64,000 bases of DNA. Source: Actinostola sp. cb2023. Taxonomy: Eukaryota > Cnidaria > Anthozoa > Actiniaria > Actinostolidae. The notes under the pieces were generated by a model that saw only the letters and a program-made list of their open reading frames with translations, had not been told where the DNA came from and did no database searches. The position numbers and the translations under genes were made by a program. The stretch is taken from positions 1-64,000 of the forward strand of contig JAUJYZ010000450.1 of assembly GCA_033675265.1 (NCBI GenBank), in the 5' to 3' direction. This document shows positions 18,196 through 63,339 of the stretch, one piece after another; the stretch's first letter is position 1, and the number at the start of each line of letters is the position of its first letter.

Positions 18196-18892
18196 TTAAG
18201 ACGAAATCCGCCAGGAGATCGAGTGATATTCGCGGTCAGCGGAATAAAATCCCACTAAGCATTGCGCGCTCAGTCATCAAATATTTTGGGGGAATATGAA
18301 AGCAGCCATCTTATATTTGCAGAAGCGATTGGCAAGATTTGAACTATTCTCTCGGTTTATGTGCAATTTTCGAGACAAAAAGGTATCAAAGTTATATTTG
18401 TTGTAGTTTGTATTGCTAGAAGTCCGATGTATTCCTTAAAAAGCGTATTTCGGCTGTGTAAATCAGGAAATTAAACGTGGGCTACCATGCGACTAAATTC
18501 ACAGTACAGATCAGTGCATGGACTCCAACAGATGACTGAAAACCAAGCCATATTATTTACCGACACATACCAATATAACAGGTAAAATGTTTGCTTCGAA
18601 TGTACAATTCTTTGGTTAGGTTGTTTACTGCAGTAAATCTATTTCAATCCGATGTTTGTCCTGTCTTGATTACTATTTCCCTGGGCTGCTTCCGGCGGGA
18701 GATTTCGGCGGGAACACTCGCACGCGCGCGTCTGTTCATCAATTTAAATGGCTTTTGAAAAACAAACAAAGTCTGAAGTCTGGTACATGGTTGGTATGTT
18801 ACTTTTCGGACCATCAAAATCCACCACTTTTGCTGTTTTACCTACCACAAGATAAACACCCTAGTATTAAAAGGGCTCAGTACTCAGTAGAA

Positions 18893-21800
18893 ATGTCAAG
18901 TGGAAGCTGCTCCGAATGTGGACAGAATTTTCAAGACAAGGAATTGAGACCCATTACAGGTTTTCCCCTGAGTGAAAAGCGAGTTTGTTCAAAGTGTCGC
19001 TGGGCAATTGAACATACGTGCAGAGTTAAAGGTTGTAAGACTCCGAAATCAAAGGTGAAACTACTTCCGCTTCCTGTAAGGTTGAGTCAGTCCACTCAAG
19101 TTGTCCAACAGAGTATTTTAGCCAAATTTGAAATGTCAGTATTGACAAAATATTGCTGTAAATCATGTTACAATAAGTTACATGCAGCTACAAGAGAGTT
19201 TGGATCTCCATCAGATGAAGAGCACTCTCGAGAGCATGCTGGCAAAAAAAGGGAGGCCTTGTGTTTCTTACAATGATGCATGTAGGAAGACACAAACAAA
19301 AATAGAAAAAAAAGCAGCCAATGCATTTCTTGAGAGCATGGTAACATTAAAAGAAACAATCAGTAATATTTCTGGAGACTGTGGTGAGGAGTTGTTTAAT
19401 GTTACCATGGGCAAGATGAATGAAACACCTGATAAGGTAATTAAAGGGGGTCTCATCGAGCCCGATAATAATTTAATCGATGCTCAGTGCTTTTGGTTTG
19501 CCTTGTTGTGCACACGATTCATCACCTACAGTTATAATAATAATAATTATTATTGAGTTGAGTGCAAACACTAAATCCATGCAACATTTTGCACTGATTA
19601 GTACTAAGTAACACAATGAAACATTAGAAAACATTTGAAATATCAGTATTTCGTACTAGATAGTAATATTTATAGTGCATGGATTTAGTGTTTTCACTCT
19701 ACAGAACCATTATCTTGACAACATGTAGTGCAATAAATAAATTTCACACATACACATGAAAAACATTGGAAACAGCATTGCAAGGGTTTGTCATGATGAT
19801 GACTATATTTACAATATTGTATTGTCATGTTTCACACATCGAGTGTATATATTTTTTCTAGCATCAACAGTCAATGCCTTCTGTCAATAACAACATCTTT
19901 GAAGGACTTACATCAGCCTACATGTATGCACAGGCCAAAAGTGAGAGAATAAAGATTCTAAGCTCTGTAGCACCACACATGGATAATAAGACTTTGCAGA
20001 CACATTTTTATTGTATTGAAGATGGCCAAAAAATATGCTGTACACCATATGAAATGACAAAAGCACGGGTTCACTATCAACAACATGGCGCAGCTGTTTC
20101 TGCACCCAAAGAACCACCAACACACTACATGAGAATTTCTCCAGATAGCTTGGCTTTCCTTATTGATTTCCTTCATAGTCCTGAGTGTACTGAGAGATCT
20201 TCCTACAAAACTGCTGATTGCAGTGGAAAAAAGAAATCTTGGTTAAGTGATCTCCTTGGAAGTGGCACCCAACCAGTCTTGCACCTAAAACGGAATAAGG
20301 AAAAAACTATTTAGTATGTACAAAGAAGAATGTTCAAAACAAAGTGAAATACCAATAGGGAGAACTCTTTTCTATCAGGGGTTGGAAGCAGGCAATTTCC
20401 ATCAACTGGTTGAAATGGCTGGTCTTTGTAATATCTGCACCGAAAGTGGAGCTGAGAACTTTGAAAAATTAAATAAGCTGGCAGAAAGAGTAGAATTACA
20501 CTGGCTAGAAAATAATGAAAGGGAATGTCCAATTCCAGATATCAAGACAAGAGCCAAAGGCCTAAAGGGTTATTTGTTGTCAGATTACACAAACAACTTG
20601 AGAAAGCATGACGAGTGTGCTAGCCACTGCATAGAGTGGTGTTTAAATGATGCACCAACTTGTGCAGATGAGAAGCATACAAACAGTTGCCCTAACTGTA
20701 ATGAGCGATGGCTACTAGTAGAAAGTCTGAATAACATTGTGAAGCAACTGAATTGTCCCTCGGATGAAAAGGATTCCTTGCTTTCTGAAATCATGGATAT
20801 AGATGAGAATCTGTCAAAATACATGTCACATCTTATACGGGGCAAACACCAGAGAGAATGTTACATAGAAGAAATGAAGAATCTCAAACCAGGGCATGCT
20901 GTTGGTGTGTGCGACTATATGATGAAGCTCATGTTTAAAAGGCTGTATGAGCCCCAGAGAGAATGGTTTGGAAAAAAAGGTGCCTCTGTGCATGGAGTCA
21001 TGTTTTTGTTTCGAGAGGAGGAAGATGGACCGATTCTAACAGAGTACCACGATGCCATCAGCGAGACAGACGATACACAGAATTGGTTCTTTAGTGCTAG
21101 CTGCCTTGAAGAGAGTGCCAAGAATATGAAAGCTCTACATCCTGAAATCACCTCCCTGTCTATGTGGTCTGATAATGGTCCTCATTACAAAAATTCAAGT
21201 TTGATAATATGGTTACAAAAATTCAAAGAACTCACTGGTATACATCTCAAGAAGTTCTCCAATTTTGAGGCCCAAAAGGGTAAGACAAAGTTGGACAGTC
21301 ATTATGCAACTCTGAAATTTGCTCTACGTCAACACATGAAGGAAGGACATAGTGTCATGTGTGGTGAAGATATTGTACAGGGAACTAAGGACAGACTCAG
21401 AGGAACACATGTGTATCCCATAGATATAAATCGTCAAGCTGAGCCACCATCTGCCAAGACACTGGCTGGAATTTCACAGTATGGTGATTTTGAGTACACA
21501 TCTAATGGCATTGTAATGAGAGAAAACACAAACATCGGAGAAGGGAAGCTTTACACCAATGCGAACCTCAACAAACACTTTAAGAATGACATTAGTACTA
21601 CATCAGCATCAACTGATTTTGACATCACTTATGCCAAAACAGTCAACAAATTGCTTCCAAAAGGGCCAAAATCAAAGGTACAACAGCATCCAGTGGAAAC
21701 TACAAAATGTACCAAAGAAGCAGCTAGAATGCCTAATGAAACTCTAAAGGAATGCAAGATTTGTGGCAAACAATTTCTTCGCCCTGGAAACATCAACCGA

Positions 21801-22238
21801 CATGAAAACAGTGGTGCGTGTAACATAAATAATAATAATGAAAAAAGAGTTGTCATATCACGCACATCAAATTATTCAACATGCGATACAAAAAATCCCG
21901 CAATCATCAATTCCGTTAGTAAAATCCATCAACAAGCAGGAAAAAAGAAAAGTGCTGAATGCACCTCTGAAATACACGAGGAATGGACAACAAGTTTAAA
22001 AGGAAGTGCTCAAAGGCGTGCAACCAAAAGAAAAGCAGTTAGGTTTACAAATGAACAAAAAGAAATCATGGAAAGATGTTTTGATTCTGGAATTACGAGC
22101 AAATCTGCACGATATACACCTCTTCAGTGTCAAAAAGAGATGACAAAACAAATTGGACCCGATCTTACCTTGAAAGAGAACCAAATCAGATCTTATTTCA
22201 GTAGGCGTCATGCAAAACATGCTGTAAAAGAGGAATAG
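18893..22238 (+). pseudogene. DDE-like / C2H2 / homeodomain-like transposase, copy A
   Basis: Start ATG 18893 opens a Cys-rich N-terminus (CSECG..CSKCRW..CRVKGC..CCKSC), probably zinc-binding. Exon 1 ends at 19436 (GTAATT donor); exon 2 starts at 19862 after a TTTTTTCTAG acceptor, in matching phase. In the long frame from 20316, likely catalytic residues are D200 (VGVCDYMM), D286 (WSDNGPHYKN) and E318 (NFEAQKGKTK), followed by a conserved D..ATLK..R....GH block. A C2H2 finger starts at residue 480 (CKICGKQF..NRHENSGAC). About residues 575-635 read like a homeodomain (KAVRFTNEQ..NQIRSYFSRR). Lesions: a frameshift between 19200 and 19262 and a one-base shift at about 20312. Likely transposase of element A. 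Same architecture as the gene at 52700-61312. Confidence 0.75.
19561..19698. repeat. Small inverted-repeat insert in the intron
   Basis: Arms of about 24 bp (AGTGCAAACACTAAATCCATGC and its near-perfect reverse complement) enclose about 90 AT-rich bases. It lies within intron 1 of transposase A. Confidence 0.75.
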
Positions 22239-22697
22239 ATCAGATGTAAACGTTTGTATCATTATTCATGTACGAAAGGCATGTTTGTGGTGCTTTTTTA
22301 CTCACAAAAATCAGTGCCTACAATAATTATCAATTATTCGCCAAAGGCGAAGTCATTATCAGAGATTATTATTCAATTTTCATATATTGTACAAATTCCG
22401 ATCTTCTGGTTGGTTGATTTGTACCACGTGACGTGTGGTAATGACGTGACAACAGTGGCGACGTCATTATCGTGGTGTATAAGCCGTGGTGTAAGCTTTT
22501 ACTCCACGGTATTAGTATTAGTTAGTATTAGCTTGCCTCTGCAATGTATACAAATTGAATAATAAAAATGTTAACGCCCTCTTTGCTTGTGAGTTATCGG
22601 GCTTTTATTACCTTCACTCGTTCACTAACTGAATTAACTCGAAATTTTCTCATACTGCACTCGGCTACGCCTCGTACAGTATTTAAATTTCTCATTA
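22239..22697. other. 3' flank of transposase A
   Basis: No gene is seen. A dense GTGACGT/GTGGTA patch at about 22420-22510, with several ACGTGACG/GACGTCA-like motifs, looks promoter-like, but no following ORF has recognisable content. Confidence 0.35.
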
Positions 22698-22856
22698 GAC
22701 TGCAAAACAGTCCCTACTTCTTCGCGAAACTCTGTCGAGAAGAGTTGAAGTTTGATCGAGTCATTGGGGTCTATTCTCTCGCAGCCCCAATGATTCTATC
22801 GAACTTCAACTCTTCTCGACAGAGTTTCGCGAAGAAGTAGGTGCTGTTTTGCAGTC
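22698..22856. mobile_element. Near-perfect 159-bp hairpin MITE
   Basis: Arms of about 72 bp begin GACTGCAAAACAG and pair with almost no mismatch around a 15-base loop. TCATT occurs next to both ends (TCATTA before, TCATTC after), a possible short target duplication. The high arm identity points to recent insertion into element A. Confidence 0.85.
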
Positions 22857-24608
22857 TCATTCATTTTTAGTGAACTTGTGCAGGTAAATCCCGATGAAAC
22901 CATCCCGATAACCCACTAGTTTACAAAGGTAAACTAATTGGGGACACCTATTTACATACAATAGAAAAATTATAAAACTAGATATTTACTCATAGATAAA
23001 ATTTACTCATACATTGTATGTTAGTTGTCTACAATTTCATAAAGGAAAAGTCAGATAATACTACTGAATTTCATAACATTATGAAAAGTTTGCTGTGGTT
23101 GGACAGGTAATATAAAGTAATATTATTTGTATTTCATTCTATGCATCCTTTTTAGATACATTGTATACAATATATATACTGTATTTACAAGTAATAAAAA
23201 AATATTTGCAGAATGGAGAATGAGCTGAAATGTGGAATGCATGTCCAGATAAATCGAACTATCATTTCGATCCTTCGCTTTACCTTCAACCTGCTGGTTA
23301 CACGTAACTGATTTGAAATTGACAAGTGTTGGGTTTTGCAAGTGCAAAATTCCATTGAGAACCTACAAAACAGCGAGCTCGTAAACACAGTGGTGTTGCT
23401 TCGATTATCTTAGAATTCACAGGCCATAAAGAATATATGTCACTTGCTCTACTGGTTAAATACTAAGCTGTTCCAATTATAACTAGTACGATTTTCTAGC
23501 ACTGAACAAAAAATATGACTAACGCCGTTGGAATTCGAAAATGAGCAATCGAGTTCGCACGCAAAAGCCAGTTCCTTTGAAGGTATAATAAACGTGTCAG
23601 AGTCGAATTGCGTGGTCAAGATACTGGACACCCTTAGTTCTTTTGAATAAGCAAGATTCTTCTATGTCTAGCTTCATATTTGTGCATTTTTGTCAAAAAT
23701 TCGCAACGCCCTCAAAACTAAGAAAACAACGTCTGTTGCAATAAGGCATAGCAACTCTCATTCGCAGTTTCACTGTCCGGTGTTGCCCAGATTTACAAAT
23801 ATTTGGCTCAAATTTATTCGTTAATGTCAAAATAAGTATATGTATTATTTCCAACTCATTCCAAGTAGGCTGACTAGCACAACACATTACCAACAGCTGG
23901 CAAATGATCTAAAATTCCAATGAACTTTCGCAGTTTCGGTAAGAACTTGTAAAGAAAATTGAAATGGCACCAAATGCCAATAAAACTCGGCGAATATAAT
24001 AAAATGACCATCAAATGAAAATAAAATTACTTAGTTTTACTAAACTACGAAGTCTTGTGGAATTTCTTCTCATAAAGAGAAAAACAATTGAATGCAGACG
24101 GCTACCATACCGAGGCGTTCAAGATGGCCATGTGCCTTCACTGCTTCAGGATAGATATGACGATAATACTCATTCTACCGTACTACACAGCCTTTCCTAC
24201 TAATACCGAGACATTCATAGATCTCAAACGTTTTTTGTCCAACAAATAATATATGTGTACAATGTATAGATTACTTACCGTGTGGAGTTGTTTCCCCAAC
24301 TAGAAGACGAGTTGGCGAGGTCGTTCCGGTTCTTGTCAAATCGTCATATACCAAAAACATCTCCTAAACTCAATTCGTTGGGCACAGAAGCTCATCATAT
24401 CTCGGCTACTTCAACATGACAGTCCCTTTAGTGATCTGAAGTTCTTAAAACTGCGATCGTATTCGTATTTTAAACAAATTCACGGCAAGAATGTGCTTCT
24501 TGTTCAGAACTGACAGAAGCACGCGACTAGGTTGTGTTTGGGAGTTAAAGCGCAATGCATTGTGGGATTTTATTCCAGGCCCTACTCGATCTCCTGGCGG
24601 ATTTCGTC
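22857..24608. other. Right part of element A, no clear gene
   Basis: A minus-strand open stretch at about 23347-23160 has a possible acceptor and donor but no known motif. Other open frames are short. The last 75 bases are the right terminal repeat. Confidence 0.4.
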
Positions 24609-40688: not shown

Positions 40689-40865
40689 ATTAGAGAGTGT
40701 TAGCAATAAGACCGAGTTCGAGATCGAGTACGAGTTCCACTTGTACTCGTACTCGTAGTTGAAAGTTTTCAGTTAAGCATCACGTATCGAGAACGAGTAC
40801 AAGAAAAGATTATTAAGGGATATAATCCTCGTTTTGGCGCCAATTTTGATTTTTTATCGGTGAAT

Positions 40866-41396
40866 ATGTCACTAAGAACCGTCCAGGAGAGCCTTCTTCT
40901 AAGTTATGGACTAGACCTGCTAAATGAAGAATAATTTTGTCTCCTTTACGATGCAAACGATACCAACTACCTTCTGTTTGATCACGGACAATACTCTAGA
41001 TTTGCACTAGATGAAGTCTCAGAAGAGGAGTGTTTGACCAGCTTTCGTTTTAGCAAATTGGATATTCCGTACCTTGCCCATGTTTTGCAGTTACCTGACA
41101 GATATAAATGTGCTAATCGCACTACAGCAGGAACAGAAGAAGCCTTGTGTATCCTCCTGAGAAGATTTGCATATCCATGCCGATACATTGACATGATGCC
41201 TCAGTTTGGGAGGTCTTTACCCGAATTAAGTCTCTTGGCGAATAAAGTGCTAAATAACATTTACGAAGATCATGGACACCTGCTGACAACTCTTGATCAT
41301 CCATGGCTGACACCAGCTAATTTGAGGGAGATGGCTGACGCCGTACACGCTAAAGGGGCTGCGCTTCAAAACCGCTGGGGATTTATTGATGGCACG
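40866..41396 (+). pseudogene. Harbinger transposase exon 1 (element H1)
   Basis: ATG 40866 (MSLRTVQESLLLSYGLDLL) opens the frame; an in-frame TAA lies at 40932-40934. The rest matches the N-terminus of the intact Harbinger transposase at 56974-56315: FRFSKLDIPYLAHVLQLPD, LLRRFAYPCRY and GAALQNRWGFIDGT, where the Asp of FIDGT is the first catalytic residue. The exon ends at a GT donor (41397). No exon encoding the second Asp and the Glu follows. Confidence 0.85.
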
Positions 41397-41541
41397 GTAA
41401 ACATGTATTAAAAATCTACAACATATTTTATTAAGAATACAATTCTCAACCTTCTCTTGAGCCATGTTATCACCATAACATTTTGAACGTCGGCACCCAA
41501 GCAACGACATTTCCATATTTCAACACTGATCTAAATCACTA

Positions 41542-41623
41542 GGCTCGATTTCCAGCCGTGGTGGTTTCGGTGCACCCGCGAAAATCGACAAAAATCGACA
41601 AAAATCGGGCTGAAAACCGAGCC
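41542..41623. mobile_element. Very short (82-bp) MITE with direct repeats
   Basis: The ends are 16-bp inverted repeats (GGCTCGATTTCCAGCC and a two-mismatch reverse complement). Flanking direct repeats CTAAATCACTA occur at 41531-41541 and 41626-41636, two bases beyond the right end. An 11-bp duplication is longer than in Harbinger or Tc1 and nearer MuDR-type lengths. AAAAATCGACA is repeated in the core. Confidence 0.7.
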
Positions 41624-41633
41624 TACTAAATCA

Positions 41634-42303
41634 CTAGCAATAGAATTGTTCCCACATAGGGCCTTTCACCCTCAATCGCCCAACAACCCCTGAAACATGA
41701 CACTCTGATTTGTCAGCATTTGCATCATGACATTTTGCTGCTGTTGTTGTTGTTTCAGTTCCCCCTCTTTGCCTCAGCTCCTTGTCAGTATCCATTTGCT
41801 GCATCTTCACCTCCATACTCTCCCTTAAGAACTGCAAAGTATCTTGAGATTTTCTTCGGCTTGATTTTCTTGGGCTCTCATCTTCGTCAGTTGAGCTTTT
41901 TCTCTTCTTTGTGGCAGAATGAGTTTCCATAGCTTTCTGTCTTATGTCACTAGCTAAGGCTTTGTCTTGCTCTTGCTTTTTCTTTTCACTATCCAAATCC
42001 TCTGTTGTTTCTGCTAATCGTTCCTTGATGTCTTCACATAGCTGCATAAATTCAGCATATTCAGCATCAATTCCGGAAGCTTTTCTTTCTTCCTTGTCTT
42101 TCTTGTCAAATTCCTCCATAATCTTTTGGAATCTGTCTCTGCAAGACCTCTGTGACACTTTGAACTCATACTGAGTGTTGGAGTTGAGGTTGTCTGCTAT
42201 TAAACTCCACACCTTTCCTCTCTGAGTACTGGATTCCCTATGATGATAGGGTTCCTGGTTCAAAACCTCCCGCAGCAAGCAAAGATTGTGGGGTCTTTTC
42301 CAT
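41634..42303 (-). pseudogene. Myb/SANT-like accessory protein of Harbinger H1
   Basis: Minus-strand frame homologous in layout to 53876-54550: NLCLLREVLNQEPY, then an RGKVWSLIADNLN helix, a CRDRFQKIMEEF helix, Lys/Glu-rich linkers and an SPRKSSRRKSQDTLQFLRES segment. In Harbinger elements the SANT/Myb-like partner helps the transposase enter the nucleus and bind the ends. The likely start ATG (42303) is one base out of frame with the body (a C run near 42290). The C-terminus diverges. Confidence 0.75.
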
Positions 42304-42524
42304 ATAAACAGTTTTCTTTTCCTGCAACGGATAAAAAAATTAACCACAGTTGGCTATTTTGCTCGAGATTGACGTGTATTCATTTTGTTTCACTATACTA
42401 TGATGTCTACAGTTTGTGTCTATGATAAAGGTAAACACACTTACACAGATATAAATGCAAACTAGCGAATAAACTAGTGGGCTGCGTCGGTGTGTAATGA
42501 TACAAAGCTGGGTAAAAGGTAAAC

Positions 42525-42620
42525 AGTAACCGTGTAAAAAATAGTACAGTACTTAACTTTATTGACGTTTCGAGCCTTGGCCCTTCGTCGAAATAAGAAG
42601 ACTTACATTTACTCAGACTG
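42525..42620. repeat. Possible Penelope-like repeat scrap
   Basis: The phrase TTGACGTTTCGAGCCTTGG, followed by CCCTTCGTCGAAAT, resembles the terminal sequence style of Penelope-like elements. It lies inside the Harbinger H1 element. No coding part is present, so this is tentative. Confidence 0.3.
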
Positions 42621-43124
42621 GACTGAGTCGAATAGACGATCGAGTTGAAAGGGAAAGAAGTTCAATCAAGAAATCATCAATGAATGAAAATACTTACGCT
42701 ACTACAGAGGCCATATGGTAGCTGTTGATGAAAGGGAGAAAAATCGATTCATAAGTATGATAGCCAGTTCAAGATAAACATGGCATGGATTCTGAAAATA
42801 TTTATATTCAACACTCTCGAGTGAAATTCAGACTTGATTGCATTTTTTAAGCAGAAAACTCGAAGAAATACTCTCAAACTCTTTGGTAAAGATTTGAAGC
42901 GATAAATGAGTGCATATTCACGAGAGAAAATGGTGAAAATAAGATTATATTTACCTTGGCAATAGTCGTTCTATCCACTACGAGTTTTCGATTTAATCTC
43001 GTCGTAGTACAACTGGCGTGAACGAGTTCGGCACGTGCTCCTGCGCAGAACCCATGAGCAGTACTCTCAGTGAAAAAACTCGTACTCGATCTCGAACTCG
43101 GTCTTATTGCTAACACTCTCTATT

Positions 43125-44477
43125 ACATTCAGATACAATCATCTATTAGATCTATATGAATTAACTAATTTTACTTAGTTTAGTTTAGAAGGCCACAAGT
43201 GTATCAGTCTCACACTGTTTAGTGTCAACCTCAGAAAATAAAGTCGTATTTTTATTAATAATAATAATAATAATAATTGACATCAATAGATCGATCAATT
43301 CTTTTTCAGCTTCCACCTTTGTATGCTGTCTTAAATTCGGGGTGTTTTCAGGAGTATAGGTAAATCTAGAGCAATACAATCATAGCTGCATTTATGAATT
43401 AGACATTATTTTTATACAGTCAATCTCGATAAGTTTGCCCCAAAAAAATATATACACATATACACACATAACTGTCACGTGACCGTATATACAGAAATTA
43501 GTCTATTATGTGAGGTGTGCAGTCAGTACCCTCAGCGCGGGCTTCCTGTGTTTCTACGCGGGCTTCCTGTGTTTTCAACGCTCATGCGCACTCAAATGAC
43601 CGCCATGTGAATTCCTTTATGTTCTAGTTAAAGCGTTGTTTCGTCATCGAAATCGTTCAGCAATCACCACCAAACAAACCATCTGTTTGAGCCTGTCAGG
43701 GTAAGACTTTCACAATAGTGCAATTATTCAACCAGAGTAGTTTTTCTTTCATTATTTAAGTATATTTTATGATTTTGGCATACAATCTCTCGACTCCTTC
43801 AGTTAGGCAACAAGTCTTTCGGCCTCACTTACACTTCATCTTTGTATTATTTTCCATGATTTATAGGCCTTTTGTCTGATTAAACGAACTACAGTTACCA
43901 AGAATCTGCCTCGTTACAATTGGTATTCATTCGCGTGATAACATTTGATACGCAATGCTGGCCTGTTCATTCAGTAACGAATCGACATACACTCATAAAT
44001 GTTTCGAATTCTGGAATAACTTTTTAACTGGAATAACGTTCTCCAATACGTACTTGCAAGTGGAAATGGATTAGTTTGCAAGAGTGAATTTAGTGTATAT
44101 AATAATGGCTCAACATCTTTTCAAGTTCAAAAGCGCAATGTATAAAAATATAAAAACAGCAACGTCGCTTGTTGAAAGTAAGACAAATGACATTCTTTCG
44201 TTGTTTACATTCTTTGGTGTTTGCCTCATATACTGAGCTATATTACGTGAGGCAAAAATATCACATAGGTTAACTTGTTTTAAAAGAGCTCATATTCCAT
44301 TATGCCTAAAGCGACCTCTATCTACCTTAGATGCAGAATGATTTGGCACAAAATCTTTCTTACCAAGTCATTTGATGGCTCAAAATATTTTCAAGTTCAA
44401 AAGCGCAACTTACGTGGAATGTTCCGCCTTCTTTTAGTGAAGAAAGCTGCCTGATCAATACACAAATCACATTTTCT
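43125..44477. other. AT-rich DNA with simple repeats
   Basis: An (AAT)n run lies at about 43255-43277. A 19-bp unit (GCGGGCTTCCTGTGTTT) is duplicated near 43535-43575. A direct repeat (ATGGCTCAA(C/A)AT..TTTTCAAGTTCAAAAGCGCAA) occurs near 44104 and 44372. No gene recognised. Confidence 0.5.
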
Positions 44478-45507: not shown

Positions 45508-45640
45508 CATTTGCATGCAATGCTTTGAAGACGTGCTTTTCCTCTGATGATCTTTCTCTATCGAGCCCACAATATTCCTTCTACACCCAGAGAAAGATCA
45601 TCAGAGGAAAAGCACGTCTTCAAAGCATTGCATGCAAATG
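45508..45640. repeat. Perfect 52-bp inverted repeat at the 5' end of the Penelope copy
   Basis: CATTTGCATGCAATGCTTTG.. at 45508-45559 is the exact reverse complement of 45589-45640, around a 29-base spacer. The right arm is the start of the Penelope coding region, so the left arm is an inverted copy of it. Confidence 0.9.
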
Positions 45641-46188
45641 GCTACCCCACACATTTTCTAAAGATCTACAGACCAAATAAACAACAGTCCAACCAACAAT
45701 CACCGCAACAAGAACAACATGAACGGCGGGGTTTCGTAGTACTTCCGTACATCCAAGGGATTTCAGAGAAAATAACCAGGACCTTAAGCAAATTTAACAT
45801 AAGAGTCGTGCACAAGCCAGTACACACTATCTCGTCTATACTCAAGAAACCCAAGGACAGGGGAGACAGAGACGCCACTACTGATGTCATCTACCGCATT
45901 GGATGTAAAGATTGTGATAAGTGCTACATAGGGCAGACATCACGCGCCTTAAAAACACGTATCAAAGAACATATTAAAGCCGTGTTCACACTCGACCGCA
46001 ATTCTTTATTAGCCAAACATCACATTGAAACGGGCCACCAATTCAACTTCGAAGATGCCAGGATCATCGACCGTGAATCTCAATGGCGCAAGAGACTTTT
46101 CTTGGAAGCGTGGCATTCTATGCGTGAATGCAACTCAATTAACGAACATGTTTATTTCCCTTGTGTATATAACAGTTTGTGTAAATGA
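45589..46188 (+). pseudogene. 3' part of a Penelope-like element with GIY-YIG endonuclease
   Basis: The frame (open from about 45547) encodes the end of the RT/linker region (VFKALHANGYPTHFLK; LPYIQGISEKITRTLSKFNI). It is followed by a complete-looking GIY-YIG domain: VIYRIGCKDCDKCYIGQTSR, then LKTRIKEH and an EAWHSMRECN end, with a stop at 46186-46188. GIY-YIG nucleases cut target DNA for retrotransposition of Penelope elements. The reverse transcriptase core is missing (5' truncation). A GAAACGTCC phrase in the 3' flank fits the terminal style of these elements. Confidence 0.85.
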
Positions 46189-49421: not shown

Positions 49422-49717
49422 CTGAGGACAGAAACCATATCTGGTCAATATCACACAGCTAATTTGACGTGTTATCGTGACTCCGATAGGAACTGGAGAA
49501 GCGTTACACGTCACTACAGGTATAATGTGTGGTCACATAGAAGCATCAAAATGACGTTGTTTCTAGAAGCGAATAACTCTAAACTAATGACGTCTTTTTG
49601 CGAAATATATAATCAACCGATTAATGTCGACATCCGCTAGTATAATGCGTATAAACGCAGAACGTCTGCACAGTGAAAAACAAACGATTTTGTCCGACAG
49701 CGTGATACATATCCGAT

Positions 49718-50808
49718 ATGGTGGCTACTAAAGTAAATGACGAAGAAAAAGCTTATATGAAACTTCTCGATAGACAAGAAAAACTATCATGCCGAAAAAT
49801 TGCCAAAATATGCAAGCGTTCACCATCAACTGTACTGAAAGTGATAAGAAGTTCTTTGAGGCCCACAAAATCATCAAATGAAAAGAAATGTCATTTAGGT
49901 CGTCCACAAAAGCTTACTGATCGTCAAAAGAGGACAATAATACGTGCACTGTATCTGCTGAGAAAACGTGAAGGGAACTTCACTGTGAAAAGAATAATGA
50001 AGGAAGCTGGTATATCTCCAATGGAAGTATCAGTACGTACAGTCAGCCGTTTGTTAAATAAGAAAGGGTTTTTCTATTTAGTGGCCCGCAAAAAGGGCTC
50101 GTTACAGATCTTGATAGAAAGAAGCGACTTGCTTTTGCAAGACGGATGAAAAAAGCTTTTCCAGAAAACCTTTGGACTGATTATATAGCGTTTTACTTGG
50201 ATGGTGTGTCTTTTGTACACAAAACGCGTCCGTTAGATCAAGCAACAGCACCAAAAGGAAAGATTTGGCGTCGGAAGGCAGAGGGATTGAGTCCCGGCTG
50301 CACTGCCAAAGGCCAAAAGAGCGGAACCGGAGGAAATCTCGTAAAGCTTATTGTAGGTATCTCACATAATGAAGGAGTAGTATTGTGTGAAAAATATGAT
50401 AAGATGAATGGTGAGTTTTTTGCTAGTTTCATTGACAAACATTTTGAAGAGGCATTTAGAAGAGCAAACAAAGGACAGACACGCATGTGGATTCAAGACG
50501 GGGACCCATCACAAAACAGTGCAAAGGCAAGACAGGCTATGACTCGCGTCAATGCAGAACTGCTACATATTCCACCAAGAAGTCCTGATCTGAATCCAAT
50601 TGAAAACTTCTTCAAAAGGGTCATGGATACCTTACACGATGATGTAATCGAGATGCGTATAGAACGAGAAAACTATGAGCAATTTACCGAAAGAGTAAAG
50701 CGAACGATCATGGGGATACCTCTAGACGCAATAAACACACTCATTAACTCTATGAACAGGAGAATCGACGCAGTTATTAAAGGCAAAGGCAAACGACTTA
50801 AGTATTAA
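49718..50808 (+). pseudogene. Tc1-like transposase, full length with one frameshift
   Basis: The frame begins at MVATKVNDEEKAYMKLL (49718). It has a helix-turn-helix (LSCRKIAKICKRSPSTVLKVI), a second DNA-binding half with GRPQKLT, then IMKEAGI..VSVRTVSRLL. The frame shifts at about 50090, where an A run is one base short. The C-terminal frame (50146-50808) has FYLDGVSF and IQDGDPSQNS (the two Asp) and PDLNPIENFF (third acidic residue). Apart from the single-base lesion the gene looks complete, about 360 residues, the usual Tc1 size. Terminal repeats were not confirmed. Likely relic of a recently active element. Confidence 0.9.
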
Positions 50809-51495: not shown

Positions 51496-51499
51496 TTAA

Positions 51500-52106
51500 G
51501 AGGGAATGTCCACTAAGACCAAGCGAAATCAAATATATATGGCACATGTCGAAAAATTAAAACTCTTCATATTTTGTCCAAAAATACCCTATTATAGTCT
51601 TAGAAACGTGGTGGGGTTTGTTTGTGAAAATATTTATTTAAACGCCAGAAAATTATAAAAATCCGTGACGACCCCGCGTACCTTGAAAACACACGAAAAA
51701 TCGCGAGTCATACCTCCTCGTAAACTTCGCTATTTCTACTTCGCATCAGACTAAAACCCTATTTTGAGTTTAGAAAGTCGTAGACGAAGTGTTTATGAGT
51801 AATTCTAATCCAATTATAAAGCTGTGGCTTAATTGTAAAGGTCACGGCGAATCGCTAAAAATCGCTAAAATTTGACTCCTCAAAATTCTTGTTTTGGAGC
51901 AGTTTTTCAAAATAAAGTTTCCCCTCCCGGTAAAATTATATTTCACTTGAAATGTTGATTTTTTGAAAGTAGAAATGCTACTGTAAAAGGGCATATGAAA
52001 ATCATTTCCGGGCTTTTTGTCAGCGCTGAAAAATAAATATCTTAAAATGCCACTAATCACACATCAATATGTCAACAGTCGGCCCATACTTTGGACCAAA
52101 TAACCG
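51500..52106 (+). repeat. Left terminal inverted repeat of element B
   Basis: Inverted partner of 62634-63241. The outer end reads GAGGGAATGTCCACTAA next to TTAA; the inner limit is ACCAAATAACCG. It includes a non-coding open frame that is mirrored almost exactly in the right repeat. The close identity of the two repeats suggests a younger age than element A. Confidence 0.9.
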
Positions 52107-53875
52107 AAAGCTTGGCGATTTCTTCTATTTTTCTTTGGTATTCAGTTGAAAACAAGAGTTGTTGCGTCGTATTTAGCTGCCCTGAAATATCAGGGTCCAT
52201 AAATATATCAGTCTGACCTCTTGTTGACGTGCGAGGTCAACAATATCATTTGGCATCGATTACAATGAGTACTCAAGTTGAAGCTATTGAGATATCACAA
52301 AGTGTATTCAATATAAACGACTCATTAATATAATTATTTTGCATTTGAACTTTTCAAGCATTGATTGTGATCCCTTTCTGAAGAAATTTGTAAAATGATA
52401 CTGTACATAAAAAGAAATCGACTTGTATCATTGCCGGGTAAGAAAGCTAATTTATGCAATTAGTTGCCGGGAAAATTAAAAAATGATTGGCAGATAATGT
52501 TAGTCCGCTTGTACAAAACAAACTATAGGTTGAATTCGATCCATAATCGGTTATAATTTATCAAGAAAAGTATTAGAGTTTCGTCAAAGTTAAATATATA
52601 GTGGATCTGCGCTTTACCGTGAAAGACCGTATGGGTGAATGGACGTCATTTGTTCCTTTCAAAAGCTAGTTGGAGGCGTTTGCGCAACGGACAAGCGGTA
52701 TGAACGAGCAGTTGTTGTTCCATTATTGTCATATTTCAGAACACACTCGCAGTGTTCCAATCGATGACATTGACTCAGAAGTAGAGCTCATTTTAGCACG
52801 TGCCTCAGTATTCACATTCCCGCGTGATATTTCGACGTGGACCATCTGTCCAGCTCATCGTTCCTCTTTGGGAATTGGCTGGCGCAGAGGGTCTAATCGG
52901 TGACGGGTTCCACCAGGACTCTCGAAGCATGCACCGAAAGGCAAGCCACGAAAAGCAGACCGTGGTCTACGAAAATCAGAATCCAAGGCCATCTTGCGAC
53001 ACACTGGAGTCTTTGTGTCAGTTGGTTCTGGTAAGTATATACTACTAGTGATAATATATAGAGTAGAAATGATCAAAACACTGGCACTGAATTGATATCG
53101 CGCCTCATTCCCTTGATGGTGATCGCTCATAATGCTTAGCCGGTGACGTCATTTCGTTTATCGGTCGCAGGTATATGCAGAGACTGTAGGCCCGTTATTG
53201 CTAATCAGCTAACTGATACCACCAAGAAGACACCAATTGAGGACATCACTGAGAACATCGCAAGCATTTCCTTGGTAAGTCTAGATATATCACCTCTATG
53301 GTATTCTTTCAACCTCTCTTAACGTCCACCTCTGTAACGTCCTATATTTATTAGGGACCTTAAGCACCGACGACGAACGCGAGGACGTCGACGACCGGAA
53401 GTAATTTTTTCGGCTTTGGCGCTACTGCGCATGCACACCTCGTCGTCCACAAGTCCAGAACGTGAGAACGCCGTGTTTGCCGTCCTGGAGAGAACGTGAG
53501 TATTTATCCTTGATTTTTACCCTGAGAATTGGTTCTAAGGGGAAAATATCTAACTAAGCAGCTTCAAGAACTCTTCATTAGTATGTTTATTGATTGTTGT
53601 CTTTCAAATCAGTTTCAAAATGTTAAATTTTCACTTTACATTTCGCTACCTTCCATAGACACTCGTGACAGTAGAGTTGTATAAAACGAACAAGTGGCAA
53701 TGTTTTTACTGTCTTTAGAGTAGAAATGGGGCCCCATGTTGATACTTTATATCACCTTTTCATTCCAAAATTGACAATTCAAATTTTCTTGATAGTCTGA
53801 TGGGATTTGTTTTCAAAATTTAAAGCGAAAATCAGGCGAAGAAATCGCTAAACTTTGCATTTGTTTTCCCAGGTA

Positions 53876-54550
53876 ATGGAGTGGTCTGAGAAACACGATA
53901 TTGCACTTTGCAGAGAGATTTTAGTCATGGAACCATTCCAGTTCCCGTACCGAAGCAAAGAAAGAGGAGAAGTGTGGAACGAAATTGCGAATAACTTGAA
54001 CGGATTAGTGGAACTGAAATTTAAAGTTACTAAGCATTCCGTCAGAGACAGACTAACTTTGTTGCAAGGAAAATACAAAGGGAAAATGAGGCAGGCGGAG
54101 AGAGCTTCGGGTATCGATTGTGAAGAGACAGAGTTGGATCAAGCGTTAGAGGAGATTTTGGAGAAAGAGAGGGTAGCAGAAGACTTGAAGGATTTATCTT
54201 ATGGCAAGAGAAAGGCTGAAAAGGCTGCTGCAGAGGAACACAGGAAGCAGGCTTGTGAGCGTTTGGGGGAAACAAAACAGAGGAATGGAAGTAAGCTTAC
54301 TGAGAAAGATGATAGCCCACCAAAACCGAAAAAATCTAGGAGGAGCACATCTGATGCTGTGGAGTATCTGAGAGAGAAATCAGAACGGGAAAGCGAGTGG
54401 AAGAATCAGGAGTTAGAATTGAGAGCCAAGGAGCAAGAAGCTAATAAAGATTTACAAAAACAACAGCTTGAGATGATGAAAGCATTCATGCAACAGCAGC
54501 AGCAGCAGAACCAAATGCTGATGGCCATGCTTGCACAAAAGAGAAGCTAA
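53876..54550 (+). CDS. Myb/SANT-like accessory protein of Harbinger H2
   Basis: ATG 53876 follows a TTTTCCCAG acceptor, suggesting a 5'-UTR intron. The 224-residue product starts with a trihelix/SANT-like fold (MEWSEKHDIALCREILVMEP; RGEVWNEIANNL; HSVRDRLTLL), then Lys/Glu-rich coiled coil, SPPKPKKSRRSTSDAVEYLR, and a Gln-rich tail. In Harbinger elements this partner binds the transposase and the element ends and brings them into the nucleus. Only mild divergence from the H1 homologue; no lesion. Confidence 0.88.
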   Translation: MEWSEKHDIALCREILVMEPFQFPYRSKERGEVWNEIANNLNGLVELKFKVTKHSVRDRLTLLQGKYKGKMRQAERASGIDCEETELDQALEEILEKERVAEDLKDLSYGKRKAEKAAAEEHRKQACERLGETKQRNGSKLTEKDDSPPKPKKSRRSTSDAVEYLREKSERESEWKNQELELRAKEQEANKDLQKQQLEMMKAFMQQQQQQNQMLMAMLAQKRS

Positions 54551-55467
54551 ACTAGCTCTTATACATGTACTCCATGAAGAGATGTTGAGTTATATATTTT
54601 TAGATTAAATATATTAATTGTTAGTTGTTATACTTTAAAAGTTACATATCATTAATTATGTCCCAAGAAATGCCATGTTGCTGTATAAGAATGATTATTG
54701 TGAAGCATGACATTTTTTTCTAGTTGAAGGGAAACTCAGTTTACCAATGATGACAGTTTCATACTTTGTAGTTAGATAAAGGAATATTACTTTTTAATCA
54801 GAATTGTTGTTCTGTTATATATGGCTTATAAATCATGTAATTATTGTTCTCTTATGGCTTGCAATCACTAACAGTAAAAGCTATATAAACCTTAATGTGA
54901 GATGATAATTATTTCAGAAATTGCAAACATGTGTTTACTATACTGCAGAGTCATTTACATTACTTCAAATCAATTAAGCACAGCATTCCCAGTTATTCTA
55001 TGTTATTGTATAATGTTCAAATTATAATTCTATCCTAGATTTTTCAAATAAAACGTTGTGTGGATAGCAAGCGTTCAGTGCCTGGAGCTTGGTATCTATA
55101 ATAATAAACTTTATTTTACAAGGGAAAAACATATCACAGCTTCAGCTGAAAAACTTATGGCCCTTCTAATCTAAAAATATAAATATAATTTTAAAAAATA
55201 TAAATATTTATATTAATTATTTAAAATGCCACTCCATACATTATACAATGCTTGCCTTAGAACTTATTGTTTTTAATCTTTGTTTGAAAAGAATGAAATC
55301 TATTGTGATTTGGTACATGAATACCCAAAACCTGTTCCTCAGGAAATGTAATTTGCATGATTGTATGAAATGTTACAAACCATAAGCTTTTATCATATTC
55401 ATTGCTACACTGGGAAATGCTTTTATATATACTGAGTCAAGGAACTTTTACATGTACAGTGACTAAT
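54551..55467. other. Interior spacer of Harbinger H2
   Basis: AT-rich DNA between the two convergent genes, with AATAAA signals (for example at 55048). No further gene. Confidence 0.6.
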
Positions 55468-55968
55468 TTAACTGAAGTACTCGTGAAGTGTGGGTGGCTC
55501 CAAATCAAAAAATTGTGAGGTCTGATTCCCATACAGACAGGTAAGGGCATTTCTAAGGAGAGCAGAAACCACATACATTTTGCCAACACTACTCAGCCCA
55601 ATCTTTAAATTCTTCTTAAAGTCAATGAATTTGAAATAAGTGGCAATGTCATTGAACAACCATTCAACTGACTCTCGCACAGTGCTCATTGAATGGTTGA
55701 AGTCCATCATTTGGGGAGTCAAGCCTTGATTTCTGAATGGTGCCTGTATATGTATCCTTAGGGGGTAAGCAGGGTCACCGTATAGACAGAATGGATTCCC
55801 TGCTTGTGAATGAGCAAACATCTGAAGCTGGTTGAGAAGACTTGAATCTGCAAGCATGCCTGCATCATGCTTCCTCCCCTTTAAGAAAATAGAAGTGACA
55901 TGCACATAGCATTAGCAGAGTCCCAGTTAGAGAAGTAAACAAAATAAAACAATGTAATTATGATAAAC

Positions 55969-56004
<36 letters not shown>

Positions 56005-56974
56005 GTACTAATATGAATTGTCCAATAAACTATTATTATGATTATTATTTGTATCATTCTTATCATTCTTATTAATATTCTTATTCTTCTTCTTCTTATT
56101 ATCATCATTAATATATTATTATTATTATATATTATCATCATTATTATTATTGTATTAGACTACTGTATAATTCATGGTAAAAAATCACTCTACTCAGGGA
56201 ATGGAATTAAAGCAACAAGATGAAATAATTGGATGAATGAATAAAAGTAATACTAAGTGAATGAATGAAGGGATGGTTGAAATAAAATGAAATACACCAA
56301 CATATCTCACCTACTGGTCCATACATGTTTCCTATAATACCATTTGGTAGGGCCACACACTGAAACTTGAGGGCATGCACCCTTTTGTGTCCATTATAGA
56401 GCATCCTCTGGTTTGTGCCTGGCCTACATATTGGTCGAACGGTCCCGTCTATGAATCCGAAGCAATTATGTAATGCAGCTCCCTTTGCAGTAACAGCATC
56501 GCTATAAATTTGCAGGGCAGCAGGGCTGAGAACAGTGTGATTCCACTGGGTTAGTCGATGGTTATGAGTGGTGTAAATAAAGTCAAGCACGTCGTTACTG
56601 ACCATGCTGAGAACTGGGACAGGCATACCAAATCGTGGTATAATGTCACTGTATCTGCATGGGTATGATAACCTTCTAAGCAGGATACAGAGACCTTCCA
56701 TACCACTGACAACACTTCGTTGATCACAAGTGAAGCTATCAGGTAATTGCAAAACCTCTGCAAGAAGTGGCAGGTCTCGTTTTCTGAACCTGAACTCAGC
56801 CAAACATTCGGCATCGTTCATGTCTTCGAGTGACAGCCTGTTGTATTGTTCATGACAAAAAATCGGGTTTTTTGGCGTGAACTCTTCAAAGAGCAGCAGT
56901 AATTCTTCATCATCTATTGCACCAAAATCATGGCTTAAAAGTAATAGCTCTTGTAGCTCGTGAAATGAAGGCAT
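55468..56974 (-). CDS. Harbinger transposase of element H2, two exons
   Basis: Exon 1 runs 56974-56315 (ATG 56974, MPSFHELQELLLLSH) and exon 2 runs 55878-55468. The join uses a GTAGGT donor and a TTCTTAAAG acceptor, which keeps phase and gives 356 residues, the normal size. Motifs: PLLAEVLQLPDSF, LLRRLSYPCRYSDI, FGFIDGTVR (first catalytic Asp), KRVHALKFQ, GRKHDAGML, CLYGDPAYPL (second Asp) and VRESVEWLFNDI (Glu). The next GT, three bases on, would shift the frame, so the stated donor is preferred. No stop or frameshift is seen. It catalyses excision and insertion into ATT or TWA sites, working with the accessory protein. Confidence 0.9.
55967..56160. repeat. ATT/CTT-rich microsatellite in the transposase intron
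   Basis: A run of ATT repeats to about 56004 is followed by mixed ATTATT/CTTCTT sequence. It lies within the intron of the Harbinger transposase. Confidence 0.85.
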
Positions 56975-57217
56975 GATGAAAATAAAACACCGTTTATACA
57001 GGTTCTCGGTTTGTTTACCTGACACGTCCTCGGCGACACGTCGACGCGCGCGCTTAACATTTCAGTTTTCCCGCCGAGGACGACGTTCTCGACCCAGACC
57101 TCCGACGGATCTCGCCGTTGTCGTCCTCGCATTCGTCGTCGGTGCTTAAGGTCCCTATTGTCACCTGCACAGCAACAACCTCTGCACAACTGAACGACCA
57201 AAATAATATTCACAACG

Positions 57218-57916
57218 GCCACCTGCACTTCATAGCACTACTCAACGACCACCCCTTCATAGCACTACGCAACGAACACCTCTACACAACGACCACCTCT
57301 ACAAAACGACCACCTCTACACAACGACCACCTCTACACAACGACCACCTCTACACAACGACCACCTCTGCACAATGACCACCTCTACACAACGACCACCT
57401 CTACACAACGTCCACCTCTACACAACGACCACCTAAAAACGACCACCTCTACACAACGCCCACCTCTACACAACGACCACCTCTACACAACGACCACCTC
57501 TACACAACGACCACCTCTACACAACGACCACCTCTACACAACGACCACCTCTGCACAACGACCACCTCTACACAACGACCACCTCTACATAGCCACCTCT
57601 ACACAACGGCCACCTCTACACAACGACCACCTCTGCATAACAGCCACCTCTACACAACGACCACCTCTACACAACGACCACCTCTATACAACGAACACCT
57701 CTACACAACGACCACCTCTACACAACGAACACCTCTACACAACGACCAACTCTGCACAACGACCACCTCTACACAACGAACACCTCTACATAACAGCCAC
57801 CTCTACACAACGACCACCTCTACATAACGACCACCTCTGCACAACGACCACCTCTACACAACGAACACCTCTACACAACGACCACCTCTACACAACGACC
57901 ACCTCTACACAACGAA
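57218..57916. repeat. Minisatellite, 17-bp unit ACAACGACCACCTCTAC
   Basis: About 40 units with scattered variants (AACGTCC, GAACACC, CAGCCACC). A long open frame read across it (repeating STQRPPLHNDHLY) is a by-product of the repeat and not a gene. Upstream of the Harbinger insertion, at about 53316-53335, similar phrases (AACGTCCACCTCTGTAACG) show the array once continued across the insertion point. It lies in intron 2 of transposase B. Confidence 0.95.
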
Positions 57917-60900
57917 TTTTTTTTTGTGCACACTTCGTTGCGTGTGGCTGGATTTTTCTGTATCAAATGGAAACCATGCGCTAGCTGTTCTGTACGGGCC
58001 AGATGTTTAATTATTTTAAACATTATTTTGTAGGATACAGCGCCAAGCACTCCTGTTACTCCAGGAGGGAGTTTTTACCTTCCCCCATGTGAGGCCACTT
58101 CAACTGATATTAGTTTTGATGATACGGCTAGAAGCAAGCCTCTAGACTCTCTCAACTGCTATTTAGAATCCAGAGATGTTAGCCCAATCAGATCCCAGCT
58201 ACACACCTCCTGGGAAAAGGCAAGTGCAAGAACGAAGCGGTACTACACACGGAAGGCAGGACAAGGTGTGGCAGCTGTGCTACAAGATATCAGCACACAT
58301 GAGACAGGCCCTCTGTTCAATGCACTGTGTTCTTCAGATGGGCTGCGTCAACAGCTATCAAGTGATGAAGATTCTAAAGGAGACAGTATAGATAACACGC
58401 TCATGGAGGCCCTTGCCGAGTGTTACCAGGCAGCCAGCAGCTGGGAAACCCGCCGGCAGATACTGTCCATTATGGCAGATAAGGTACGCTACAGCAAAGC
58501 CCTACGGTACATACCAGGTCTGACAAAATATCGGTATACAGAAGCGAAACGTCACTGCGTAGCCTATGGCAGAGGCGTGCCAGTCCAGTCTACAAGAGCA
58601 CCCAGGACAGACGTCACCACCCCACAAATAGAACATTTCATATTATTCATTACCAGCTCGCACATCGTGCAAGATCTGCCATTTGGAGAACGGTCGATAA
58701 TGCTAAGCACTAAAACAACCCTCAAGATCCCAAATGTCATCAGAATGATGATACCTGAAAGAGTAGTGAAACAGTACTTGGCATACTGTGAGGAATCTGG
58801 TTTCAAGCCGTTGAGTAGAAGTACACTTCTACGTATTCTTACTGTCTGTTCAGCCTCCGTCCGTAAGTCATTACAAGGTCTGGACTATGTCAGCTCGGCA
58901 GGTGCGCAGGCATTTGAAGATCTGTTTGATGTCGTGGAGAGACTTGGTGACGCGGGTAAAGGCATGGGCTGGACCAAGGATTTGCAGAGTCGACTACGAG
59001 CCGCAAAGCGCTACCTCAAGAATGATTACAAGGTAGACCATATACTATGCCGTCGTCTTGTGCAGCTTTATTATGTTTGCAAAACTTCTCATCCCTTACC
59101 AAATATATTGGGTGCATTGTGGGTAATTGACATGCTCTCAAATATAGGTATCAAAAATGAGGTAGATAACACCATTGGTTATTTGTTTAAACGGTCTACT
59201 CCACTGTAACATTCGAGACTGAATGAGTAACAATTATCCACTATGTACCCTATATTTGGGGAGTGTTCAGGCTTTCTCAGTGGAAATCGTTGTTAAAGAT
59301 ACTGGGCCTCTGGCTTGTATACTGCTCATAATTGCATTGTGGGTACATCAGTCACGTGTAAACAGAGCAGTAAGATTAACAGCCGCATGGTTTAATTCTC
59401 AATTACAGGTGCATGTTTCTCAAGTCGCCACTGTGACCGACCACTGCAGATTGTTTGCTTTAAGCGATCCGAAGGACGCCGCCTTCCAAGTTGAATGTGT
59501 CGACCACAATCATAATGACTGCTGTGATCGCTGTGACTTATTGGCAGCAACTCTCGACGAGATAGAGTTGGCACTGGTTGCACAGGCAGATAACTTACCG
59601 ATTGGTGACAACGAGGAGCTGACGTTCACAGTAAAGCAGGCGAGAATGAACATCACATCCTGGAAGGCACATATTCTGCGCTCCATAAATCAGGACGCTG
59701 CAAGAATTGACGTATTGGAGTCGCTTGACGAGTCTTCGGTATTAGTCGTCCAGGACTGGGCCATGAAGTACTTGCCAAGGAAATACCGCGAGAGCCAAAC
59801 TGATTGGTTTGGTAAACGCGGTATTCCTTGGCATATTAGCGTAGCGTTTAGAAAGATTGGCGAACAGTTTGAGATGCTAACGTTTTGCCACATCTTCCAG
59901 GCCTGCAGTCAGGATAGTTCTGCAGTCCTCGCAGTGATGGCAGACGTCATCCAGCAACTCAAGGCCATCATGCCCGACTTGAAGACAGTGAGTTACCGAC
60001 AAGACAACGCTGGATGCTATCACTGCGGGCCACCATAGTTTGTGCAAGCACACTGGGAGTGAATCTGGACGTGACGATCAAGCGGCTGGATTTTTCCGAC
60101 CCTCAAGGAGGAAAAGGAGCCAGTGATCGTAAGGCAGCGACTATAAAATCACATATGCGTATCCACTTGAATGCAGGCCACGACATTGAGACTCCAGCTC
60201 AGATGTATGATGCTGTCCTATCGTCCGGTGGAGTTCCATCCTTGAGTGTCACCCTCTGCGAGTCTGTCACAGGTCCTCCAATGGCCAAATATAAGATCGA
60301 CGGTGTTAGCTTAATCTCTAATATAGAGTATTCAGCTGAAGAAGGAATCCGCGTGTGGAGAGCGTATGGTGTTGGACCTGGCAGGCTGATATCCACTGAC
60401 CCTCCGTCATTAGATGGCATACCATCGCTAACAGTAGTCCAGGCCAACCCAAGCTCATTCTCCACCGTGAAGAGACGCACGACAACAAGTGACACCAGGG
60501 GCGTTGTCCAAGAGGAACAAAGTGATGAAGATCATGCAAGTACAACATCAGGCGAGATGCTTTTTACCTGTCCAGAGGAAACCTGTACAAAGACATTCCT
60601 GAGACACTCGTCTATGATGCGACACCTGGATTGTGGGAAGCACCAATGTACTTTAGAGCACGAGACCCTACTGGACAAAGCTGCACTAGAGTACGCGGAA
60701 CAGCTGGAAGGACACTCTACAATGGTACCGGTTGTAAGTATGGCCAGCAGAGGTCCAAGTGAACACCCACAATCAATGGGCTGGGCCCTGAAGTCTAGCG
60801 GGTCACGTAGGGCTAGGTTCACCCAAGCACAAAAGTCTTACCTGACTGCAAAGTTTAGGCTTGAAGAGCAGACCGGACACAAGGCAGATCCTGCATCAGT

Positions 60901-61312
60901 TTCACGGTCGATGATGTTTGCAAAGGATTCCAGCGGCAGCCGACTATTCACCAGCGACGACTTCCTCACTGCAAACCAGATTACGAGCTTCTTTTCACGC
61001 CTTGCTTCAAAGAAAAGCCTTGCGGATGACCAGCAACAAGATGACATAGAAGTCGCCGCACATGAGGCCGGGATTGAAGAAATAGTAAACGAGGTCATGT
61101 ACGAGTTGGTTCCCAAGCATCCTATCATATTCGATGTTTATAATCTGTGCGAGCTTGCTTCGAAAAGAAAGCTGAGTGAGTTTTCTATTGCAGTCCTAAA
61201 GGACATCTGTAACTCTTTTGGAATTGACACTGCAGACATAACAGTAAAGCGCAAAAAGCCATACATAGACAAAATACAGTCACTTTGCCATATGTGTCCA
61301 TGCCAAGAGTAA

Positions 61313-62633
61313 ATGCTTTTCCCGAGCTACAGCTGAGTCACAGCACAGGTAGTTAAGCCATTTTCTTTTTGACGTTCTGAGAGTATGTGGTTGTGTTTTA
61401 GTAGAAGAAAAAAATCGAGCAATTTTCCAAGTGTTATTCAAGACAAAGAATACTTGAAAACATTGCTCTATTTTATTGATTGACGTAAATCTGATGTTTC
61501 CACGTCCAATATAGAACTGTGGTAATAGCAAGAAGCTGACTTGAAAATTTGACAACAAAAATGAAGAAATAGAAACGCGCGCACGTGCTATATTTAGAAA
61601 ACGTGGGGACTGATCAGAACACGAGAAAGTAGCGGAGTGCTTCTAGACACGATCAGTCCTCAGGTGCTCTACTGATTGCACAGAGCACATGGGATAACTT
61701 TGATATTTCTTTGATTATGATTTTAAGGAAATTTTTCAATCTTGTTTGTTACTAAAATGTTGGAATATCTGCGTGCGGGTGCCTGTGTGCTCTTATAAAG
61801 CAGATTTCATACTGACTAGTTAAAAAAAAAAACTACGGCAGCCGTGATGATTTAGAATTTCGAATGAATCCGTGCTATGACCGTGTTGTTATTATTATTG
61901 TGCCGTGCGCCGTGGTTTCGCGTGCGTTGGCTACAGAACGGTACGTTTCCAAGTATATAGATATTTTGCTTTCTACGAGTTGCCTGCGAAAACATATGCT
62001 GACTTCCAGCAACGCAGGCTATTTTCTTTTGAAGTTGGCCGCAGCCAGCAGATACAAAAATTATTAGTGACTTGCATGGGTCCCGCGGGGAATCGGTGAA
62101 ATGTACATTACAATTACTCCTGGTCCAAAGCTCTGGGTACATTTCCAAATACGTTTTTGTATATTTAAGGTTATAATATGTATTCGACAGAAGCTTTACA
62201 TGTTCGTTTTGTTTTGCTCTGTGTATTTATGACTAGATTGATTCAAACAAAATCAGAGCAGGGGAAAATTTAAATGAATCAGTTTTAAAATGCGTGACAT
62301 TCATTGCGTGACTTTACACCACCAGTAGACACTGAAACTATTATTGCACGCACATGTTTAACTTTCAAAAGGAACTAAATCATCCGAGAAAATAGTTTTG
62401 AAACATCTAATAAAGTAACTTTCACTGATTTGTAAAATATAATTATTTTAATTAATAAATCAAGGCAAAGGAAATGTGGTTGATTGTAACTGACAATAGT
62501 ACGTTTTGAAATACAGTATTACGTACATGCACTAATATATTGTTGACACCGAACGTCAACAAGGCCAGCTATCATATAAAATATATTCCTATTAATTCTA
62601 CAAAGCTCATTCAAAGCTAACTGTACGTAAGAA
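61313..62633. other. 3' part of element B, no gene recognised
   Basis: The stretch after the transposase stop has short open frames only. No polyadenylation signal stands out. Confidence 0.45.
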
Positions 62634-63241
62634 CGGTTATTTGGTCCAAAGTATGTGCCGACTGCTAGTAGTTGTTGACATATTGATGTGTGATTAGTGG
62701 CATTTTAAGATATTTATTTTTCAGCGCTGACAAAAAGCTCGGAAATGATTTTCATATGCCCTTTTACAGTAGCATTTCTACTTTCAAAAAATCAACATTT
62801 CAAGTAAAATATAATTTTACCGGGAGGGGAAACTTTATTTTGAAAAACTGCTCCAAAACAAGAATTTTGAGGAGTCAAATTTTAGCGATTTTTAGCGATT
62901 CGCCGTGACCTTTACAATTAAGCCACAGCTTTATAATTGGATTAGAATTACTCATAAACACTTCGTCTACGACTTTCTAAACTCAAAATAGGGTTTTAGT
63001 CTGATGCGAAGTAGAAATAGCGAAGTTTACGAGGAGGTATGACTCGCGATTTTTCGTGTGTTTTCAAGGTACGCGGGGTCGTCACGGATTTTTATAATTT
63101 TCTGGCGTTTAAATAAATATTTTCACAAACAAACCCCACCACGTTTCTAAGACTATAATAGGGTATTTTTGGACAAAATATGAAGAGTTTTAATTTTTCG
63201 ACATGTGCCACCCACCGCTCGAAGTTAGTGGACATTCCCTC
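62634..63241 (-). repeat. Right terminal inverted repeat of element B
   Basis: Inverted, nearly identical copy of 51500-52106. Outer end CACTAACTTCGAGCGG after the shared GAGGGAATGTC, then TTAA. The patch that differs from the left copy lies about 20-35 bases in. Confidence 0.9.
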
Positions 63242-63339
63242 TTAAAGCTCTTTCTGTAGAGTGTTCTACAGTGGTTAACTTGGGTGGTCTACCATCGACC
63301 AGTTAACCATTGCTAATTAGCCTATTGTTGTTATCCGGC

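Follow-up and report, generated by a model that had tools for sequence, protein, structure and literature searches.

What is the 11.7-kb segment bounded by long inverted repeats that lies within the first 64,000 nucleotides (forward strand) of contig JAUJYZ010000450.1, assembly GCA_033675265.1, of the actiniarian Actinostola sp. cb2023? We call the whole 64,000-nucleotide stretch the window, the segment element B and a second, related element of the window element A; families A and B are the proteins related to the gene of each. Element B is probably the decayed copy of a DNA transposon that moved by cut-and-paste and belongs to the Sola3 group of the Sola superfamily; it seems to add a further family to a known kind, not something new. 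The evidence comes from its ends, its gene, the relatives of that gene and the traits published for TTAA-targeting transposons.

The borders of the element and its terminal repeats are as follows.

51500-63241, element B, 11,742 bp (about 7.9 kb without a nested Harbinger-like element)
51496..51499, no strand, TTAA, left target-site copy, read directly
63242..63245, no strand, TTAA, right target-site copy, read directly
51500..52106, + strand, left terminal inverted repeat: outer 17-bp identical block, divergent spacer, 538-bp block, inner 31-bp block
62634..63241, - strand, right terminal inverted repeat, from alignment to the left terminus

The preliminary description of this DNA had reported near-identical inverted repeats of about 607 bp with TTAA directly outside both, and both observations hold: the termini measure 607 and 608 bp, are inverted and agree in 591 of 621 alignment columns (19 gap positions, TTAA counted in), a match far above chance. 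Their core is an ungapped block of 538 bp (51540-52077 versus 62673-63210) with two mismatches in the pairwise alignment; the repeat listing gives 100% for this block. The outermost 17 bp of both ends are identical (GAGGGAATGTCCACTAA) and are followed by spacers, 23 and 14 bases long, with hardly any alignment, while on the inner side a 10-nt indel precedes the final 31-bp block. The ends of element B are thus bipartite, an outer 17-bp block and a long repeat with a spacer between them. That the inner arms are almost identical suggests that they were homogenised recently or arose recently, and it provides no clock. As for the expected 4-bp target-site duplication, TTAA is present at both ends, in the flanks of this one copy; given the frequency of TTAA in the window (356 occurrences), the chance of finding it at both ends of an element is about 3 in 100,000.

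Between the repeats lies a gene whose four exons were assigned from GT/AG borders and the proteins of relatives (numbered P).

52700..53030, + strand, transposase exon 1, Cys/His-rich N-terminus (tblastn with P0005, 54% over 107 residues)
53171..53274, + strand, transposase exon 2 (GT/AG borders; P0001, 97.7% over 44 residues)
58034..59032, + strand, transposase exon 3, N-terminal helical part (GT/AG borders; P0005, 54% over 297 columns)
59409..61312, + strand, transposase exon 4, catalytic domain with C2H2 part (60569-60643) and homeodomain-like part (60812-61015)

The end of exon 2 is disputed, the gene model of P0001 extending to 53304, beyond the donor chosen here. The three catalytic Asp codons lie in exon 4 at 59754, 60003 and 60125. 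This gene is broken: exon 1 contains an in-frame TGA at 52901-52903, exon 4 loses its reading frame at about 60029-60032, after the second but before the third catalytic Asp codon, and a nested Harbinger-like element of 3.8 kb interrupts the gene. Neither the interruption of the gene nor the nested element, which accounts for about 3.8 kb of the total length, had entered the preliminary description. P0001 and P0002, both from Actinostola sp. cb2023, read through the point of the frameshift, and an assembly error in the window may be the source of the defects.

Apart from these defects, the gene codes for a transposase with three catalytic aspartates (DDD) and a predicted RNase H fold. Depending on the site, the aspartate is conserved in 39 to 40 of 40 family-B and in 15 to 16 of 16 family-A proteins. 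The predicted structure of a homologue has an RNase H-type core, and the solved structures that align best with it are retroviral integrases. The likeness to the integrase core is one of fold only, with 8-13% sequence identity. Retroviral integrases are DDE enzymes (two aspartates and a glutamate); the B-type enzyme differs in being DDD and in belonging to a transposon, not a virus. The core is left uncovered by the NCBIfam families listed; two of them matched 2/40 and 1/40 family-B members (best E 0.0059 and 0.00043), which we take for chance. The Pfam family DUF7869 matched 4/40 family-B members weakly (best E 0.069), possibly a distant relationship.

Outside the core, a single C2H2 finger was recognised by Pfam in 5/40 family-B and 5/16 family-A proteins. 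The Pfam homeodomain model matched an open reading frame (ORF) of element A at E 0.0014, below the model cut-off, and left the B pieces unmatched, so that the homeodomain-like label in B is based on the alignment of families A and B and on reading by eye. When the family-B profile was compared with the sequences of solved structures, 27 matches at E <= 10 were obtained, among them 3k17 (E 0.6); the other 26 we take, in part by name, to be zinc-finger proteins.

Element A carries a gene of the same type.

18200..24608, + strand, element A, related TTAA element (catalytic Asp codons at 20913, 21171 and 21294)

It is flanked by TTAA at 18196-18199 and 24609-24612, and its ends consist of a 34-bp match across the TTAA, unequal spacers and another short conserved stretch, with 79% identity over 77 columns overall. 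The left ends of A and B both start TTAAGA, A itself beginning GAC, and in the one pair compared, left end against left end, there was no match at E 0.01. At the level of proteins, the alignment of A and B that had been proposed as a check was carried out as a comparison of family profiles and gave a probability of 100 and an E-value of 1.8e-68 over 778 columns, from which we regard the two families as homologous. As to the gene architecture said to be common to both elements, the order of Cys/His-rich start, W-F-G-K, three Asp, C2H2 and homeodomain-like end is present in both genes, but the C2H2 and homeodomain-like labels are weak by model. The Cys-rich start of A differs from that of B, and the Cys-rich exon of A at 18893 is putatively joined to the catalytic exon. 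With homologous genes, each element having its own inverted ends and TTAA, the earlier proposal that A and B are TTAA transposons sharing a gene type, and not duplicated host genes, is supported.

Does the gene of B belong to its repeats? A duplicated host gene might have become trapped by inverted repeats to which it is unrelated, such as a pair of MITEs (miniature inverted-repeat transposable elements), and solo copies of the B repeat elsewhere in the genome are possible; within the window, the terminal repeat matched nothing at E 0.01 except its own arms. Such trapping is very improbable. For B as for A, the best named matches come from Actinostola sp. cb2023: P0001 is 98.6% (207 residues) and 99.5% (381 residues) identical to element B, and P0002 99.0% (381 residues). 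These two proteins are encoded on separate contigs (the longest of 282,212 and 132,897 bases), either as distinct loci or as alleles, and the locus of the window itself, in another assembly, may be one of them. In P0002 (QZH41_000987), the transposase is followed by a 20-residue stretch with 85% identity to the translated terminal repeat of B (E 2.7e-8 in a small local search, 8.6e-6 against the window), and this in turn by EF-hand sequence. P0002 is likely to be a gene model that fuses a transposon and a host gene, be it an annotation artefact or an exonised insertion. Because its transposase continues into the repeat peptide, gene and B repeat occur together in a second public locus or allele, which speaks against trapping, as do the TTAA at the outer edges and a protein family that is large and of the DDD type.

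The family-B search matched 329 proteins, with nine from Oculina and 12 from Actinostola among the 120 listed. The family-A profile found 37 proteins, 36 of which had been found earlier (P0159 was new); the entries named by organism were two from Oculina and one from Actinostola, and no entry among the 37 was named as a transposon. The best named match to A is P0126 (Actinostola sp. cb2023), 99% over 45% of the query, longer matches reaching 65-66%. Pattern matches in viral contigs (18 and 68 for the two families) and in genome contigs (25 for family B) yielded none that was confirmed, and tblastn of phages with one 464-residue piece gave no match. The collections searched may leave out records near the genome of the window.

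Which TTAA-targeting superfamily does element B represent? piggyBac transposons share the TTAA target site, but their ends are CC[C/T]T and their termini 12-19 bp long (PMC2872659), whereas B ends in GAGG and has termini of about 607 bp. No piggyBac model is present among the Pfam families listed (all 13 of 13 for family A; the best 25 of 27 and the best 25 of 55 for family B), and a piggyBac origin is scarcely credible. Kolobok, another TTAA superfamily, is defined in PMC9587614 by TTAA duplication, 5'-RR...YY-3' ends and a C/DxxH signature between the second and the last acidic residue. The TTAA and the purine-purine GA...TC ends of B fit that definition, but C/DxxH is absent in 39/39 family-B sequences and the pattern occurs in 1/15 family-A sequences (one row per family, with no acidic residue at D2 or D3, was dropped from the count), and we consider a Kolobok transposon quite improbable. 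piggyBac and Kolobok each fail a defining feature, the termini in the former and the C/DxxH signature in the latter.

The Sola superfamily fits better. Its published traits are a DDD transposase, a 4-bp duplication, terminal inverted repeats of 11-1124 bp and a length of mostly 2-9 kb, with some elements of more than 15 kb. Every trait that could be tested was found in B: DDD, TTAA at both ends, termini of 607/608 bp and a size of 11,742 bp. Within the superfamily, Sola3 is reported (Bao and colleagues, 2009) to have a TTAA target and 5'-GAG ends. Element B has TTAA and GAG ends and element A begins GAC; the ends of B would speak for Sola3 to the extent that these traits define the group. The likeness of B to Sola and Sola3 lies in DDD, the 4-bp duplication, long and variable termini and the size range, and, given the reported Sola3 target, in TTAA. 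B may differ from Sola3 in its two-part ends, with their spacers of unequal length, and in the C2H2 and homeodomain-like parts, the likeness being one of description and not of sequence.

Several points weigh against this assignment. The Sola3 label comes from a fit of traits and from the target and ends reported for that group, not from a sequence comparison with Sola3 transposases. A table in PMC5704228 lists AT instead of TTAA as the site preferred by moth Sola elements, whose group is unstated. Foldseek by itself was weak, with 0/364 matches at E <= 0.001 and a best value of 6.7e-3, and the core is left uncovered by all Pfam families listed, within the same numbers as given for piggyBac. 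At the first catalytic part P0002, whose gene model departs there from that of B, reaches only 57% over 227 gapped columns. Among the papers searched, the accessible portions contain no description of the B gene type and no mention of TTAA for Sola3; PMC5199201 uses both terms, but its text ties TTAA to piggyBac, and PMC2836005 mentions neither Sola nor TTAA.

These points leave room for A and B being an undescribed TTAA-targeting DDD superfamily of anthozoans, lancelets and a crinoid, in which an integrase-like core is combined with a Cys/His-rich N-terminal part, a C2H2 finger and a homeodomain-like C-terminal part, and whose bipartite ends vary greatly in length. In its favour are the core uncovered by the listed Pfam and NCBIfam families and a placement beside Sola3 by description only. 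Against it stand the Sola traits, all of which were found where they could be tested, and the annotation of Sola-3 in corals, where the B family occurs too: in three coral genomes, Sola-3 accounts for 0.26-0.75% of the sequence, and in Acropora tenuis some regions are enriched in it. The Sola-3 of corals may be the same thing as the B family. We regard a separate superfamily as doubtful, though well ahead of the other alternatives, and membership of Sola3 as the probable reading.

As a member of Sola3, element B would move by cut-and-paste. Its transposase would bind both ends, probably recognising them via its zinc-binding, C2H2 and homeodomain-like parts, and probably using the outer 17-bp block together with the inner repeat. 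The DDD core would then cut at the TTAA/GAG border, and the cut segment would be moved and joined into another TTAA, giving rise to the 4-bp duplication. As read, this copy cannot make the full enzyme and would therefore be movable only with the help of an intact relative.

Two further features occupy the intron that separates exon 2 of the transposase gene from exon 3.

53352..57157, no strand, nested Harbinger-like element with 42-bp inverted ends (93%)
57265..57915, no strand, 17-bp minisatellite, 38.6 copies

The Harbinger-like element contains, on the - strand, a DDE_Tnp_4 fragment (PF13359, E 6.6e-10 on the ORF at 55468-55911) and, on the + strand, an ORF at 53852-54550 that was called Myb/SANT-like by eye and had no Pfam match. 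Harbinger elements are expected to leave a 3-bp duplication; none was recognised by eye at the borders. Elsewhere in the window, 40684-43129 is probably a second Harbinger-like element: its 53-bp inverted repeats enclose one ORF that matches Myb_DNA-bind_4 below the cut-off and another that looks by eye similar to the Harbinger-like ORF at 56207-57061. Two overlapping ORFs at 49706-50808 with helix-turn-helix and DDE_3 matches look by eye like one Tc1/mariner-like transposase broken in two where the frame changes. An integrase core at 32849-33463 (rve, E 9.7e-17) looks by eye like the remains of a Gypsy-like retroelement, and an ORF at 45529-46185 has a GIY-YIG match just below the Pfam cut-off (22.4 versus 22.6 bits).

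Family B is large, yet its core is uncovered by the listed Pfam families, so its members stand on public record as hypothetical proteins or within chimeric gene models. Elements A and B give defined ends and target sites with which this gene family can be annotated in cnidarian genomes.
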